DNA from: Bdellovibrio sp.
Lineage (GTDB): Bacteria; Myxococcota; SpSt-1050
DNA: 9,119 nucleotides
Direction of reading: 5' to 3'
NCBI GenBank assembly: GCA_020725805.1
Contig: DYEF01000049.1
Coordinates: 1-9,119, forward strand
Both the position numbers and the translations under genes were made by a program. This document shows, in pieces, positions 1,797-8,430 of the stretch. Under the pieces are notes generated by a model. That model was given only the letters and a program-made list of their open reading frames with translations. It did not search any database and was not told where the DNA came from. Numbering within the stretch: the first letter of the stretch is position 1; each line of letters opens with the position of its first letter.

Positions 1797-2915
1797 TTAT
1801 TTTATCCCGTAGAACGGAAAGATGTTCTCTTTGTAATAATAGAGAATTCTCTCTGCCTCTTTTGTTGCTATCTCCTTTTCGGGGCCGGATACAAAGAGAT
1901 TCATATCCTTAAGACCTGATACGGATAATTCCTGACTCCCCATAAATGTCCCGCCAAGTGTTGCCGAATAGTAGTCGTCTGTCTCCACGTCATTTAGGAC
2001 TGCCCATGCAAGTGTATATCCCTTTGAAATATTGTCGGGATTATAACCTCCGCCCCCGAAAGCAATCAGTCTCTTCGATTTGTCCCTGATTATCCTGACC
2101 GCCTCGGTATAGGAGTTGTTGGTAAGCCTCAGGTGTGTGAGCGGGTCCGTGCTCATCATATCCACGCCTATCTGTGCTACCGTAACATCGGGATTGAATT
2201 CTTCGATTATTGGTACAAAGATGTTCTTAAACAGGAAGAGGAATATTTCATCATCGGCATAGCAGTTGAGGGGAATATTCAGATTATAATATTTACCGTC
2301 TCCGCTTCCAGTTTCATCCTCGAATCCGCCGAAAGGAAAGAGGGTTTTGCCTGATTCGTGAAACGACATCTTGAGGATATTGGGATTGTCGTAAAATCCG
2401 CTTTGAATACCATCACCGTGGTGAGCATCGATATCGATATAAAAAACACGTTTTCCGGCTCTCAGGAGAAGCTCAATGAGTATGCCGGCATCGTTTATGT
2501 AGCAGAAGCCGGCCGCCCTGTTTCTCATTGCGTGGTGAAGTCCACCTACAGGTACAAATATCCTGTCTGTATTCTCAAAATTCAGGAATGCATCCTTTGC
2601 CATTGAGGTATGCAGAAGGGCCACATCGAATATCCCTCTGAAGACAGGGTTGTCCGGAAGTCCGATACCATATTGAAGGAATTCGGCCTCGATCTCCCCG
2701 CTGTTTGCCCTTTTCAGAATCTCTGTATATTCTTCGGTGTGGAAGAGTCTTATATCTTCCTCACTTCCGGTTCCTGTCCCGAGTATATCATCATCCTTTA
2801 TCAGACTGAGTCTTGCCGCAGAATTGAGAAAGAGTCTCCCCCTGTCGAGTCTAAACGGATGATTTGCGCCATAGGTATATTTTTCGAATTTCTCCGAGTA
2901 GATTATCTTTGCCAT
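1797..2915 (-). CDS. Class I histone deacetylase-like (AcuC-type) protein deacetylase
   Basis: A 372-residue zinc hydrolase of the arginase/deacetylase fold, about the usual length for AcuC-type proteins. The key residues of the family are visible: charge-relay His127-His128 in GGLHHAM, zinc ligands Asp163 and His165 in DIDAHHGDG, the third ligand Asp252 in GVDMMSTDPL, and the transition-state Tyr291 in GGGGYN. All are intact, so it should be active. AcuC in Bacillus removes acetyl groups from lysines of acetyl-CoA synthetase, opposing the GNAT enzyme AcuA; other members act on acetoin-related or polyamine substrates. Here it is the last gene of an operon, 4 bases after a gene carrying a GNAT acetyltransferase domain, which favours protein-lysine deacylation. 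The ribosome site is GAGG, unusually close to the ATG (2 bases) and overlapping the upstream stop, suggesting translational coupling. No signal peptide, so cytoplasmic. The physiological substrate is not evident. Confidence 0.92.
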   Translation of the reverse strand: MAKIIYSEKFEKYTYGANHPFRLDRGRLFLNSAARLSLIKDDDILGTGTGSEEDIRLFHTEEYTEILKRANSGEIEAEFLQYGIGLPDNPVFRGIFDVALLHTSMAKDAFLNFENTDRIFVPVGGLHHAMRNRAAGFCYINDAGILIELLLRAGKRVFYIDIDAHHGDGIQSGFYDNPNILKMSFHESGKTLFPFGGFEDETGSGDGKYYNLNIPLNCYADDEIFLFLFKNIFVPIIEEFNPDVTVAQIGVDMMSTDPLTHLRLTNNSYTEAVRIIRDKSKRLIAFGGGGYNPDNISKGYTLAWAVLNDVETDDYYSATLGGTFMGSQELSVSGLKDMNLFVSGPEKEIATKEAERILYYYKENIFPFYGIK

Positions 2916-2919
2916 AGCC

Positions 2920-4761
2920 TCAGAACTTAACTTTCAGCGAATATGTATCCTCGTCCAGCTTTGTCTCTACTTTCATATCGATTTTGTAGAACACACGGAG
3001 CATCTTCTTGTTGGTAGCCAGCACCTCTGCCTTAAAGCCGGATATCCCTCTCTCCATCGCTATCTGGCTGATAAATTTCAGCATATATGTGCCTATGCCC
3101 CTGTTCTGATAATCATCTCTGACTACAATTGCCACCTCTGCAAAATTGTCTGACGGGTCCCTGTTGTATCTCACAATTCCGATAATCTCTTCGTTTTCGG
3201 GTGGCCCTATGATTGCCACGATTGCCATCTCGTCCTGATAGTCGATATTTACAAGGTGCTGAAGTTTTTCGTGCGGCAGGGCCTTGAGATATGAGAAGAA
3301 TCTGAAATAGATGGTTTCATCCGATAATCTGTAGAAGAATTCCCTCTCGAGCGGTTCGTCGGTCGCCTTTATCGGCCTGAAAAATACAGTAATGTCTCCG
3401 AATTTCTCATATTTTTCGTACTGCTGCGGATAGTATTTTCCCATAGGTGTAAGGGGCAGCTGGTCCTTCGGTACAAAGCCGAGTTCCTTTGCCTCTTCCA
3501 GAAGTTTATCCCTGAAGTCGGGATGTGCAATGGCTATCAGTTGCATGGCTCTGTCTCTTATATTCTTCCCGTGTAGGTAGGCGACACCATATTCCGTAAT
3601 TACATAATGAACGTCTGCCCTCGATGTAACAACGCCTGCACCCGGCGGAAGTTTCGAGACTATTCTGGATATGGTTCCGCCTTTTGCTGTGGACGGCATT
3701 ACGATAATCGGTTTACCACCCCTGCTCCTTGCGGCCCCTCTTATGAAATCTACCTGTCCGCCGAATCCGGAGTAAAAGTAATAGCCTATTGAATCTGCAA
3801 CGACCTGACCGGTGAGGTCTATCTGAATCGCCCCGTTTATCGAGACCATCTTGTCATTCTGGGCGATTATGAACGGGTCGTTTGTATATTCGATCGGGTG
3901 AAATTCTATAATCGGATTATTGTCCACGAACTGATAGAGCTTTTTGCTTCCCATACAGAAGGAGGCAATGACTTTGTCCTTGTGGAGGGTCTTGAGTTTG
4001 TTGGTGATATTTCCGTTTTCGATAAGGTCTATAATCCCGTCCGAGAACATCTCCGTATGAACGCCGAGGTCATTCTTGTTTTTCAGTTCCTGCATAACTG
4101 CATCGGGGATTGTGCCGATTCCTACCTGCAGTGTTGCCCCGTCCTCGACGAGTTTTGCAACGTTTTTCCCTATTTTTTGTGCAATCTCGTTTGGCTTCGG
4201 ATGTTTGAGTTCGATGAGCGGCATATCTGTTTCTACGATGTAGTCAATCTGTGAGATGTGGATGAATGAATCGCCAAGGGTCCGTGGCATCTGTCTGTTC
4301 ATTTCTGCTATTACAATTTTTGCGCTCTCGGCGGCGGCCTTTACGATGTCTACATTTACACCGAAGCTGCAGAATCCGTATTTGTCGGGAGGGGCAACGG
4401 ATATAATGGCAACGTCAATCTTGATCCTGTTCTTCTTGAAGAGGTCGGGAATCTCGGAGAGAAATACAGGTATGTAATCACCTCTTCCCTGCTGAACGGC
4501 GTCTCTTATTGTAGGACCGATGAAGAGTGCCGAGTATCTTACATTCTTCTTGAAGGGTTCCTGTTCGTATGGTGTGAGTCCCAGTGTGAGGATGTGCAGA
4601 ATCTCCATATCCTCGGTGTATCTGATCTTCTCGTTTATTGCACCTATGACGGTTCGGGGCTCTGCCGCACCGGAGCCTAAAAAGATTCTCATACCCGGTT
4701 CAATCAGTTCCGCAATGGCCTCCGGTGTCCTGATCTTCTCTCTGTATTTTTCCAAAACCAT
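2920..4761 (-). CDS. Acetyl-CoA hydrolase/CoA-transferase fused to Pat-type GNAT acetyltransferase
   Basis: A 613-residue cytoplasmic two-domain protein. Residues 1-440 form an acetyl-CoA hydrolase/4-hydroxybutyrate CoA-transferase unit: SVAPPDKYGFCSFG (121-134), CoA-binding GIGTIP (214-219), the putative catalytic Glu237 in HTEMFSDG, GGQVDF..GAARS (334-346) and ITEYGVAYLHGK (388-399). The Glu forms a glutamyl-CoA thioester in this family. Residues about 458-613 are a GNAT domain opening with FRPIKATDEP and LSDETIYFRFF, resembling the GNAT half of the lysine acetyltransferase Pat, with the acetyl-CoA loop QNRGIG at 552-557. Pat normally carries an acyl-CoA-synthetase-like domain, so here a CoA-transferase takes that place. 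The architecture occurs in databases as a bifunctional hydrolase/GNAT protein. It starts 16 bases after the kinase-transacylase gene, with a good ribosome site, and ends 4 bases before the deacetylase. Likely roles are CoA transfer between short-chain acids and lysine acetylation; acyl specificity cannot be read from the sequence. Confidence 0.92.
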   Translation of the reverse strand: MVLEKYREKIRTPEAIAELIEPGMRIFLGSGAAEPRTVIGAINEKIRYTEDMEILHILTLGLTPYEQEPFKKNVRYSALFIGPTIRDAVQQGRGDYIPVFLSEIPDLFKKNRIKIDVAIISVAPPDKYGFCSFGVNVDIVKAAAESAKIVIAEMNRQMPRTLGDSFIHISQIDYIVETDMPLIELKHPKPNEIAQKIGKNVAKLVEDGATLQVGIGTIPDAVMQELKNKNDLGVHTEMFSDGIIDLIENGNITNKLKTLHKDKVIASFCMGSKKLYQFVDNNPIIEFHPIEYTNDPFIIAQNDKMVSINGAIQIDLTGQVVADSIGYYFYSGFGGQVDFIRGAARSRGGKPIIVMPSTAKGGTISRIVSKLPPGAGVVTSRADVHYVITEYGVAYLHGKNIRDRAMQLIAIAHPDFRDKLLEEAKELGFVPKDQLPLTPMGKYYPQQYEKYEKFGDITVFFRPIKATDEPLEREFFYRLSDETIYFRFFSYLKALPHEKLQHLVNIDYQDEMAIVAIIGPPENEEIIGIVRYNRDPSDNFAEVAIVVRDDYQNRGIGTYMLKFISQIAMERGISGFKAEVLATNKKMLRVFYKIDMKVETKLDEDTYSLKVKF

Positions 4762-4769
4762 ATTTTATG

Positions 4770-4775
4770 CTCCCT
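4770..4775 (-). promoter_or_regulatory. Ribosome binding site of the CoA-transferase/GNAT gene
   Basis: The minus strand reads AGGGAG 8 bases before the ATG at 4761. It lies inside the 16-base gap after the upstream stop, supporting this start and independent initiation within the operon. Confidence 0.75.
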
Positions 4776-4777
4776 TG

Positions 4778-7135
4778 TTATGTCTTCTTGATGTTCATAA
4801 GAGTGTATAGTAGGATTCCGAGCGATATCGATGCAAGTTTGCTCTGTGATGTATCTCCTCTGGATGTCAGAATCAGCGGTACTTTTCCCCCGACGACTAC
4901 TCCGGCTATCTTTGCGTGGCTGGAAACTGTCAGGGTTTTGTAGATGATATTCCCCGCCTCGATGTCAGGCATAATCAGAATGTCTGCGTCGCCTCTGATT
5001 CTGCCCTGATATTTCTTCTCCTCTGCGATGCGCGGATTTATTGCCACATCGACCGATAGCGGGCCTTCGATTATAAATTCGCTGCTACCCGACAGTTCAT
5101 CTGCTATCTCTTTTGCCTCGACGGAGGACAGGACAGAGGGATTGACCTTTTCGACCGCAGAGATTATTGCAATCTTCGGGCATTTGATGTTGAGAGCCTT
5201 TGCAACCGATACCGAATTCTGGATAATCTTCTTCTTGGCGTTCTTGTTCGGGGCGGGATTTATTGCGGCATCTGATATGAGCAGGAGTTTCGGATATGCC
5301 GGTACTTCGAATACACCTACATGCGAGAGGAAGACCTTTTCGTCAGGGGAGAGCATGGATTTGGTAGTCTCAATGAAGGAGCGCATAATCTGCTCTGTCA
5401 TTATTGCTCCCTTCATGAGCATATTTACCACGCCGTTTTTGTAGAGGGACATAGACTTTTCTACGGGATTCTCGGCGTCCACGATAGTGAAGTTGTCGTT
5501 GTCGATGAGTATATCATAATCCCATGCTATCTGCGATATCTCGGCAAACGGGCCAATAAGCAGAAACTTTGCAATTCTGAATCTCCCCTCTGAGTTTGCA
5601 AGATTTGCGGCCTCTATAGCCTCTTCGTTGTTTCCTCCTACTATACCTATGCGGGGACATCCGTATTTTGCAGCCTGCTCCTTTGCCATAAATATAATGT
5701 CATTGATGCATCTCGCCGGCATCTGCGGCTTGACTCTCAGTACCGGTGCATCGAAGAGTTTTGCATCCAGCGTCTTCCTGATATTTGCGATATTGCGGCT
5801 GAAGATAAGTTTCTCCTTTGAATAATCCTGCAGTCTTTCGGGTCTTACACGGGAGAGTATGTTTTCAGTTGCCAGCAGTTCGAGGTCAAATGTCTCGCAG
5901 AAAGGTATAACGGGGACATTCAGGTGTATCATTTCGTAAATAAGCCTCATAATCTCATCCGAACGGGATAGACCGCCAGAGACTGCAATTATAAACGGGA
6001 GTCCCTTCTCTGCCGCGACTGTCATTACTGATTTGGCTATGGCTCTGGTAAAGAAGCTGATTATCAGGTTTATCTTCTGTCTCTGGATATCGCTCGAACC
6101 CATATCCCTGAAGTCCAGAAGGGTTTTGAAATCATTTGTGCCGGCAAGACTCAGAAGACCGCCTTCGTTATATATCAGTCTTTTTAGTTCCTCGACTGAG
6201 ATTCTGCCGTTTTTGATCTCTTCCAGAACAACTTCTATCGGAATATTTCCGGCCCTGTTGGAACCCGGCATATCCGAAAAGGCATTCATCACAGCAGTGA
6301 TTTTTCCGCTCTGGTGTCTTGCCGTGGAGATTCCTCCTCCTGCGTGAGTTGTGATGAAGATACTCTCCTCGTATCTTCTCCCTGTAAGACCACACAGTAT
6401 CTTTGCAATACTGCGGTGATTCAGATAATGTGCCCCTGAACCCTTTCTGAAATAACCGAATACACCGAGCATCCTCTCTGCATCAAGCATCTCATCCGTG
6501 GATACCGGGTCAGTGGTGGTAAGTAGTATATCACTCTTTCTCGACCTGAGTCTTTCGCCTATGATTATACCGAGATTTGACGGATGTTCCAGCGGGGAAT
6601 TCAGGGTATCTTTTATCATCTCCTCGTCTACAAGGAATGTCCCGCCCTCTGCCGGATGCAGATATCCTCCCTTGACCGCTATTCCCGATATCATCTCAAG
6701 CGAAATTCTGTTGTTGCCAAGAAGTGTTCTTATCTGATTTACCCTGAAATCGGCATCTGTGTTCTGCTGAACCGGGAGTGGGATATCCTCCTTTATCAGA
6801 GTACTGGTTCCTCTGTATACCGCAACTTTGGTAGATGTGTTCTGTGGAATAACAGAGAGGGTCAGTTCGTCTTTGCCTGTGCGGCTCAGAAGTTCCATCT
6901 CTTCAGCGGCAAAGAGCTGGAATACCTTTTCAGAGTTTTCGGGAGCGGCTAATCCCTTTATTTCCTGTATCAGGATTGATTCGATTCTTCTTCTGATATT
7001 TCTGTACTCGTCACAATCTTTCATATTAATCAGATGTTCGATTACCCTGCCCAGAGTCTCGGGCTCACAGGGTATAACCCTGCTTTCGATCTTCGAGAGC
7101 AGATTCTCTATATCCTGCGGGAATATTTTTTCCAT
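4778..7135 (-). CDS. Butyrate kinase-phosphate butyryltransferase fusion
   Basis: One uninterrupted 785-residue protein. Residues 1-90 are a charged, probably helical N-terminal region I do not recognise. Residues about 91-440 are a butyrate-kinase-like ASKHA domain: phosphate loop PQNTSTKVAVY (97-107), TDPVSTDEM (208-216), LNHRSIA (238-244), THAGGGIS (263-270), SNRAGNIP (292-299) and adenosine loop SGGLS (386-390). Residues about 470-785 are a phosphotransbutyrylase domain: LMKGAIMT (573-580), LSHVGVFEVP (603-612), SDAAINPAP (621-629), VEKVNP (661-666), GDADILIMPDIEAGN (715-729) and VVGGKVPLILTSR (747-759). In clostridia these are separate adjacent enzymes that convert butyryl-CoA to butyryl-phosphate and then to butyrate plus ATP. 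Fusion could channel the acyl-phosphate. Some kinase active-site positions deviate (Ile96, Lys155), so the kinase half may be altered. It is the first gene of the operon, with GGAGG 5 bases before the ATG and a strong promoter upstream. Acyl preference (acetyl, propionyl, butyryl or branched) is not determinable. Confidence 0.92.
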   Translation of the reverse strand: MEKIFPQDIENLLSKIESRVIPCEPETLGRVIEHLINMKDCDEYRNIRRRIESILIQEIKGLAAPENSEKVFQLFAAEEMELLSRTGKDELTLSVIPQNTSTKVAVYRGTSTLIKEDIPLPVQQNTDADFRVNQIRTLLGNNRISLEMISGIAVKGGYLHPAEGGTFLVDEEMIKDTLNSPLEHPSNLGIIIGERLRSRKSDILLTTTDPVSTDEMLDAERMLGVFGYFRKGSGAHYLNHRSIAKILCGLTGRRYEESIFITTHAGGGISTARHQSGKITAVMNAFSDMPGSNRAGNIPIEVVLEEIKNGRISVEELKRLIYNEGGLLSLAGTNDFKTLLDFRDMGSSDIQRQKINLIISFFTRAIAKSVMTVAAEKGLPFIIAVSGGLSRSDEIMRLIYEMIHLNVPVIPFCETFDLELLATENILSRVRPERLQDYSKEKLIFSRNIANIRKTLDAKLFDAPVLRVKPQMPARCINDIIFMAKEQAAKYGCPRIGIVGGNNEEAIEAANLANSEGRFRIAKFLLIGPFAEISQIAWDYDILIDNDNFTIVDAENPVEKSMSLYKNGVVNMLMKGAIMTEQIMRSFIETTKSMLSPDEKVFLSHVGVFEVPAYPKLLLISDAAINPAPNKNAKKKIIQNSVSVAKALNIKCPKIAIISAVEKVNPSVLSSVEAKEIADELSGSSEFIIEGPLSVDVAINPRIAEEKKYQGRIRGDADILIMPDIEAGNIIYKTLTVSSHAKIAGVVVGGKVPLILTSRGDTSQSKLASISLGILLYTLMNIKKT

Positions 7136-7140
7136 AAAAA

Positions 7141-7145
7141 CCTCC
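7141..7145 (-). promoter_or_regulatory. Ribosome binding site of the kinase-transacylase gene
   Basis: The minus strand reads GGAGG, 5 bases (all T) before the ATG at 7135. It is a near-perfect Shine-Dalgarno and fixes the start of the fusion protein, including its N-terminal extension. Confidence 0.85.
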
Positions 7146-7216: not shown

Positions 7217-7245
7217 TGTATAGAGTATAAGTTTTACTATGTCAA
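7217..7245 (-). promoter_or_regulatory. Sigma-70 promoter of the acyl-metabolism operon
   Basis: On the minus strand a perfect -35 box TTGACA (7245-7240) and a -10 box TATACA (7222-7217) are separated by exactly 17 bases. Transcription would begin near 7210, giving a leader of about 75 bases before the ATG at 7135. No terminator was seen after mglA, so some read-through from mglBA is also possible. The rest of the gap 7136-7342 holds no gene; it includes a 12-bp palindrome at 7286-7297. Confidence 0.78.
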
Positions 7246-7342: not shown

Positions 7343-7927
7343 TTATCTTGATTTGAGTTCCAAAAGGACAAGTTTGGCTATGGCCTTGAGCGTTTCGAAG
7401 ACCCCCACGCCCTTTGATGCCACCGCCTCAAAATCAGGTACATTGCGGTAGTTTAGTGCCTTTCTGAGTTCTGCAACAGGCATTACGTTGGGGAGGTCGC
7501 GTTTGTTGTACTGAATGACAAACGGCATTTTGTCCAGGTCGAATCCGTGTTCTTTGAGATTTATCTTTAGGTTGTCGAGTGATTCCAGATTTGCCTCCAT
7601 CCTTTCGATCTGGGAGTCCGCAACAAAGACTACTCCGTCGGCGCCTTTGAGTATAAGTTTTCTCGAGGCGTCATAGAATACCTGTCCCGGGACCGTATAA
7701 AGGTGAAATCTCGTCTTGAAACCCTTGATATCGCCAAGAGACAACGGCAGAAAATCGAAGAAGAGGGTCCTTTCGGTCTCGGTGGCAAGTGATATGAGCT
7801 TCCCTTTTGCCGAAGGGTTGGTCTTGGCGTAGATATACTGAAGATTCGTTGTCTTTCCGCAGAGACCGGGTCCGTAATAGACAATTTTGCAATTAATTTC
7901 ACGAGCTGAATAATTTATAAAAGACAT
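7343..7927 (-). CDS. mglA: MglA, Ras-like polarity GTPase
   Basis: A 194-residue small GTPase, the same size as M. xanthus MglA and, from memory, very similar along its whole length. P-loop GPGLCGKT is at 19-26, the switch regions include [12 protein letters not shown] (48-59), the G3 region is TVPGQ (78-82) with the Thr78 characteristic of MglA instead of Ras Asp, the specificity motif NKRD is at 141-144 and ASKG at 170-173. Arg53 and Gln82, used for GTP hydrolysis when MglB repositions the active site, are both present. In myxobacteria MglA-GTP marks the leading pole and controls gliding and type IV pilus motility; in other bacteria MglA sets pole identity. No motility genes are in this window. 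It is translated 17 bases after mglB, with AGGTG at 7935-7939 as ribosome site. Cytoplasmic, cycling to the pole or membrane. Identification is firm; the process it controls here is not shown. Confidence 0.97.
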
Positions 7928-7944
7928 ATATTAGCACCTAAAAA

Positions 7945-8430
7945 TTAAAAATCTCCGAAGAGTTTGTCTATATCCCCTTCGGTAATATCTATAGCCCCCT
8001 GTGAATCCTTCTCCTTCTCTGTTTTGGAGAATATGGCATCGAATATCCTGATAAGCTCCTCGGTGGACTTCTTTACCTTTAGTCTCACAAGTCCCTGATT
8101 GGTCCTTTTGTCAAATATTACAACCAGAATCATCCGTGCCCCGATCAGTGAAATATGAACGGAATCGTTCTCTCCCTCATGAAAGAGGACCGAGAATTCC
8201 TTCTCACCCAGAATTTTGGCAAGTCCGCCGGTGGCTGCCACATTCCCTGCCGTAAGTGATGCGAGTGAAGTTGTGTCCATTCTGGATACATCCCCGGAGA
8301 CTGCGATCAGCTGCCCGTTTTTATCGACGATGAAGACTATTTTGGAGTTTGATTCCCTGAACAGCCGGTCGCATATGAGTTTTATTGCCTCATATTCCTT
8401 TTCGTGTAGAACTAACTGGGGATTAAACAT
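7945..8430 (-). CDS. mglB: MglB, roadblock-domain GTPase-activating protein
   Basis: A 161-residue Roadblock/LC7 protein, close to the roughly 159 residues of M. xanthus MglB. Family stretches include VFIVDKNGQLI (32-42), DTTSLASLTAGNVAATGGLA (52-71), FHEG and VVIFDKRTNQGLVRLKVKK. The homodimer binds MglA, stimulates GTP hydrolysis and marks the lagging pole. The acidic C-terminal tail ending DIDKLFGDF (153-161) matches the conserved extension that in M. xanthus contacts MglA as a second, regulatory site, so that feature appears retained. It is the first gene of the mglBA operon and is divergent from the lipoprotein gene. Ribosome site AAGG at 8437-8440 lies 6 bases from the ATG. Identification is firm from family resemblance and from the immediate pairing with mglA. 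Confidence 0.97.
   Translation of the reverse strand: MFNPQLVLHEKEYEAIKLICDRLFRESNSKIVFIVDKNGQLIAVSGDVSRMDTTSLASLTAGNVAATGGLAKILGEKEFSVLFHEGENDSVHISLIGARMILVVIFDKRTNQGLVRLKVKKSTEELIRIFDAIFSKTEKEKDSQGAIDITEGDIDKLFGDF

Follow-up and report, generated by a model that had tools for sequence, protein, structure and literature searches.

The 9,119-nucleotide stretch of DNA analysed here (the window) carries a three-gene operon encoding a butyrate kinase-phosphotransbutyrylase fusion (Buk-Ptb), a CoA-transferase-GNAT fusion (CoAT-GNAT) and a class I HDAC-like deacetylase. We propose, with a probability of about 0.6, that these genes form a co-inherited control unit through which the metabolism of short-chain acyl-CoA and acyl-phosphate would be coupled to the reversible acylation of protein lysines, with activities, substrates and direction of regulation all predicted. 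This reading is preferred because of the linkage of the genes, their fusions, the conserved catalytic residues and the clade formed by the operon HDACs. The Pat-type GNAT would write acyl-lysine from acyl-CoA that is supplied or sensed by its fused CoA-transferase, the phosphotransbutyrylase would connect the acyl-CoA pool with acyl-phosphate, and the co-transcribed HDAC would erase the acyl-lysine mark. By analogy with AcuA/AcuC, the likeliest main target would be an AMP-forming acyl-CoA synthetase (ACS), at the lysine of its A10 motif. The kinase domain of the window genus is probably non-catalytic and may be kept as a structural or ligand-binding part.

The operon and its surroundings

The window is contig C44 of a 3.29-Mb genome, and a same-genus relative is placed in Myxococcota. 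The features of the operon are:

1797..2915 (-), class I HDAC-like deacetylase gene, 372 aa (Pfam Hist_deacetyl; HH, DxH, D and Y present)
2920..4761 (-), CoA-transferase-GNAT fusion gene, 613 aa (Pfam/NCBIfam)
2923..3435 (-), Pat-type GNAT domain (Glu of AEVAIVV and CoA loop QNRGIG both retained)
3463..4761 (-), CoA-transferase domain of 4-hydroxybutyrate/butyryl-CoA:acetate type (Glu237 aligned with Glu238 of 3GK7)
4778..7135 (-), Buk-Ptb fusion gene, 785 aa (Pfam/NCBIfam)
4781..5725 (-), phosphotransbutyrylase domain, aa 471-785, conserved motifs intact (motif alignment, structure match)
5801..6871 (-), ASKHA butyrate-kinase domain, aa 89-445, degenerate active site (alignment with 1SAZ, the genome's own canonical Buk and 31 fusions)
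6872..7135 (-), fast-evolving N-terminal helical extension of Buk-Ptb, ~88 aa (43% identity to the same-genus ortholog; AF2 model)
7141..7145 (-), candidate ribosome-binding site GGAGG, ahead of the ATG of the first gene
7217..7245 (-), candidate promoter TTGACA-17-TATACA, 10/12 consensus bases (consensus match)

Gaps of 16 bases (Buk-Ptb/CoAT-GNAT) and 4 bases (CoAT-GNAT/HDAC) separate the genes. An earlier sequence-only reading of this DNA had the coordinates, strand, gene number and spacing of the operon right. Its product families also agree with Pfam and NCBIfam for all three proteins, although the label 'kinase' holds for the fold and fails for the active-site motifs. The same reading described one strong promoter, a strength that is not established because 213 of 2000 dinucleotide shuffles (~11%) of the upstream gap of ~208 bases also score at least 10/12 promoter bases. 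The candidate was absent from the output of a standard promoter scan.

Upstream of the operon lies an MglA/MglB-like gene pair (7343-8430, -), which is conserved in the genus (96% identity). This pair was considered as a part of the operon and rejected, being ~207 bases away and unlinked to the module elsewhere. On the other strand, the window holds the C-terminal part of a YD/Rhs-repeat-like protein with a terminal HEIAH motif (1-603, +), an overlapping 365-aa frame without a Pfam match (542-1639, +) and the start of a Cys-rich, lipoprotein-like frame that runs past the contig end (8568-9119, +).

Active sites of the encoded proteins

An AF2 model of the window Buk-Ptb (pLDDT 89.5) contains both expected folds, as revealed by structural matches to 1x9j for butyrate kinase (Z 41.3, rmsd 2.0, 359 aligned) and to 7vg9 for phosphotransbutyrylase (Z 39.0). 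The corresponding family models score below their cut-offs in the window protein (TIGR02707, butyrate kinase, 175.5 against 289.1; TIGR02706, phosphotransbutyrylase, 227 against 410.5). In the kinase domain, the phosphate-1 motif NPGSTSTK reads IPQNTSTK (aa 96-103) with loss of Asn and Gly, the conserved Arg of RGG is replaced to give KGG (aa 155), and the adenosine-side motif GSNEE reads ETFDL (from aa 414) with Gly and Glu replaced. The corresponding sequences of the same-genus ortholog are IPHNTSTK, KGG and EIFDL. Judging from the substitutions, the kinase of the window genus probably cannot make acyl-phosphate from ATP. The sequence-only reading had the operon making or draining this donor; the making is unsupported for the window operon because the kinase active site is degenerate. 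The genome also carries a canonical buk/ptb pair in another operon, together with indolepyruvate oxidoreductase-like genes.

Relaxed selection on the window kinase was considered and is not shown, its dN against the same-genus ortholog (0.127) being close to that of the genome's canonical Buk (0.109). At the amino-acid level the domain has diverged only slightly faster than the canonical enzyme, so it is still under constraint. The dN/dS ratio was unusable for this pair due to saturation of synonymous sites. The idea of a dead kinase in all relatives is ruled out: outside the genus, the kinase could be scored in nine HDAC-linked relatives, and every kinase motif is intact in all of them (9/9).

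The catalytic Glu of the window CoA-transferase is present (Glu237, aligned with Glu238 of 3GK7). Its assignment to an exact substrate class is tentative because the TIGR03948 score (305.5) falls below the cut-off of 674.8. The match of the GNAT domain to NF058543 is likewise below the cut-off of that model, and its closest matches are protein acetyltransferases (9isq and mycobacterial Pat).

The deacetylase was previously read as an intact class I enzyme. Its family, its fold and all catalytic residues are confirmed, including the Zn ligands and Tyr (HH, DxH, D, Y), with deacylation itself a prediction. The model (pLDDT 81.9) matches HDAC2 with a Z of 43.7; by sequence, the nearest solved relatives are HDLP and HDAC1/2/3. 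The matches listed by sequence and by fold include no acetylpolyamine amidohydrolase. In a phylogenetic tree, the operon HDACs form one clade with the HDAC of a same-order genome (G002) and that of locus L150 (12 rows, 96/95), which is nested in a wider clade of 20 rows (100/100). Outside the wider clade fall 26 other HDAC rows from these genomes, including the second HDAC of the window genome. The L150 and L153 sequences sit on long branches, and their exact positions are unsure. An alignment of the linked set revealed that the catalytic residues of HDAC, GNAT and phosphotransbutyrylase are kept throughout.

Conservation and variation of the module in relatives

When one genome per GTDB species was scanned with the alignment of the fusion, 34 loci encoding a Buk-Ptb fusion turned up. 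They belong to Myxococcota, Krumholzibacteriota, Latescibacterota and UBP1, and assembled metagenomes are the source of nearly all the homologues. CoAT-GNAT is linked to Buk-Ptb in 19 relatives. The HDAC gene lies directly upstream of Buk-Ptb in nine relatives (Krumholzibacteriota, Latescibacterota and UBP1); seven of these have the order CoAT-GNAT>HDAC>Buk-Ptb (L080, L083, L084, L087, L089, L105 and L112), with a 4-base overlap of CoAT-GNAT and HDAC in 5/7. The other two show HDAC>Buk-Ptb at contig ends (L081, and L082 with a partial HDAC). The window genus has the order Buk-Ptb>CoAT-GNAT>HDAC. Across several phyla the linked genes are ~40% identical and their order is permuted. Such conservation of the gene set goes far beyond what chance would give, and the test that the sequence-only reading had set for its own refutation, a lack of conserved gene order in relatives, did not refute it.

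In other Myxococcota, Buk-Ptb stands with CoAT-GNAT and an ACS-like protein of the AMP-forming kind, joined in some loci by an NDP-forming synthetase. With the window counted, HDAC is linked in 12/35 fusion loci, an ACS-like protein in 17/35 and both together in none, a pattern for which phylogeny and short contigs confound testing. As many fusion loci lack a linked HDAC, this gene is not an obligatory part of the operon. A Sir2 gene was observed directly 3' of Buk-Ptb in one genome (L067:10299-11072, +, on the same contig as L101), where it perhaps stands in for the HDAC. The earlier description of the operon as self-contained is too simple and unsupported, because relatives carry a decayed ACS-like protein in place of the HDAC and one has a sirtuin there. 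As a separate observation, a divergent BcrAD/BadFG-DUF2229 gene and a conserved gene of ~412 aa (no Pfam match) lie upstream of Buk-Ptb in L097, L103 and L111; in L101 the same pair lies upstream of the ACS-like gene.

The ACS-like proteins beside Buk-Ptb in L095, L097, L102, L103, L106 and L111 have lost motifs A3, A5 and A8 and retain an intact A10 lysine motif; these six are likely pseudoenzymes, to judge by their motifs. The A3 motif is noncanonical in every protein covering that region, and the A10 Gly-Lys is kept in 17/17 linked proteins. Among 559 eight-residue windows of the alignment, A10 is the most conserved and the A3 ATP motif ranks 367th. The A10 lysine is the residue of AcsA acetylated by AcuA (PMC11255334). 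This pattern suggests that the linked ACS-like proteins may have been retained as acylation acceptors. In the window itself no ACS gene is linked to the operon; a canonical ACS, its A10 motif intact, is encoded on another contig of the genome (C92).

Two Myxococcota genomes other than that of the window join the writer and the eraser in one protein. L150 (G034:C184, 4324-7479, -) has CoAT, GNAT and HDAC in one 1051-aa frame, and L151 (G030:C342, 1848-4291, +), which is 68% identical to it, has the same frame interrupted by the contig end. These were the only CoAT-into-HDAC matches among those listed from 195 genomes of the phylum. In both, the CoAT has lost the GIG loop and its catalytic Glu is replaced by Asp, and the GNAT Glu is kept. 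All HDAC residues are kept in L150, as are those ahead of the contig end in L151.

Known systems and competing explanations

In Bacillus, the AcuABC system comprises a GNAT and an HDAC-like enzyme that act on ACS (PMC13039410, PMC11255334), and AcsA-AcuA can acetylate lysine from acetyl-phosphate through a coupled Pta reaction (PMC11255334). In families and arrangement, the window operon resembles acuABC/AcsA: a GNAT and a Zn-dependent HDAC-like deacetylase share an operon that is tied to acyl-CoA metabolism. Unlike acuABC, its GNAT is fused to a CoA-transferase, a Buk-Ptb fusion is added, no AcuB (CBS + ACT) domain was found in any window protein scanned and no AMP-forming acetyl-CoA synthetase gene is adjacent in the window. 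In Pat enzymes, inactive acyl-CoA-synthetase domains serve as acetyl-CoA sensors (PMC8556138). As in type I Pat (PatZ of E. coli, Pat of Salmonella), a Pat-type GNAT that has both its CoA loop and its Glu lies C-terminal to a large acyl-CoA-metabolism domain in the window fusion. In the window protein that domain is a CoA-transferase of 4-hydroxybutyrate type whose Glu is intact, whereas in type I Pat it is an inactive NDP-forming acyl-CoA synthetase. None of the five GNAT types distinguished in PMC8556138 covers this architecture. Because the AcuB, adjacent-ACS and NDP-synthetase features fail, the module is filed neither as acuABC nor as type I Pat.

Buk-Ptb has the same two enzyme folds and families as the clostridial ptb-buk operon, but the two are joined in one chain, Buk before Ptb and a helical extension at the N-terminus, and the kinase of the window genus is degenerate. 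Similarly, the HDAC has the fold and all catalytic residues of Aquifex HDLP and class I HDACs but belongs to a separate clade, has its own C-terminal region and is GNAT-linked or GNAT-fused. Judged by sequence, the module differs from AcuABC and Pat in its CoA-transferase-GNAT architecture, its Buk-Ptb fusion and its direct GNAT-HDAC fusion. No literature on CoAT-GNAT or GNAT-HDAC fusions was found in the open-access subset.

Points against the control-unit reading are the lack of a linked ACS gene in the window, the ability of HDAC-family enzymes to act on small molecules, the many fusion loci lacking a linked HDAC and the metagenomic origin of nearly all homologues. A set of Buk, Ptb and CoA-transferase would also be expected of a purely catabolic acid-activation operon, which likewise counts against it. 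In such a short-chain fatty-acid activation or energy-conservation operon, Buk-Ptb and CoA-transferase would interconvert acid, acyl-phosphate and acyl-CoA, and the GNAT and HDAC would be generic ACS regulators with no privileged tie to it. HDAC-linked relatives do retain all kinase motifs, and other Myxococcota operons add a nearby NDP-forming acyl-CoA synthetase and a BcrAD/BadFG-type gene, as acyl-CoA metabolism predicts. However, the window kinase is degenerate while a working-looking buk/ptb pair sits in another operon, the linked ACS-like proteins are without the ATP motif, and the tri-domain CoAT has lost its Glu whereas GNAT and HDAC have kept theirs. We regard a catabolic operon as possible but rather improbable. 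Distinctly less likely is that the HDAC is a small-molecule amidohydrolase of an uncharacterised catabolic pathway, with the GNAT acetylating the same molecule. Several bacterial HDAC-family enzymes act on small molecules such as acetylpolyamines or acetylated acids, the operon HDAC clade has no known substrate, and the missing acetylpolyamine amidohydrolase among the listed matches does not exclude such a function. The proximity of the HDAC to HDLP, HDAC1/2/3 and, by fold, HDAC2 argues against it, as does that of the GNAT to protein acetyltransferases. No evidence was found for an accidental grouping of unrelated metabolic genes, a reading that is refuted by the linkage of the same genes in several phyla at ~40% identity in permuted order and by the fusion of CoAT, GNAT and HDAC in one frame in two genomes.

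The coupling of short-chain acid flux to lysine acylation, as put forward in the sequence-only reading, is partly supported, by conserved linkage, the tri-domain fusion and intact writer and eraser residues; acyl-phosphate making and self-containment drop out of it. A more tentative and, in our estimate, doubtful extension is a sensory acylation system, in which one acyl-metabolism part per lineage would be a likely pseudoenzyme acting as ligand sensor or dedicated acceptor while the GNAT and eraser stay catalytic. That part would be the kinase in the window genus, the ACS-like protein in other Myxococcota and the CoA-transferase in the CoAT-GNAT-HDAC proteins, an assignment held just as tentatively. 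If this were true, the decayed ACS-like protein, in which no site is better conserved than the A10 lysine, would act as a dedicated switch. The control-unit reading addresses the open question of how bacteria link acyl-CoA and acyl-phosphate levels with protein acylation. Here the genes for writer and eraser are tied to those for the donor-handling enzymes, two genomes have writer and eraser in one protein, and the module may offer a compact, expressible system for asking whether acylation is metabolite-gated.
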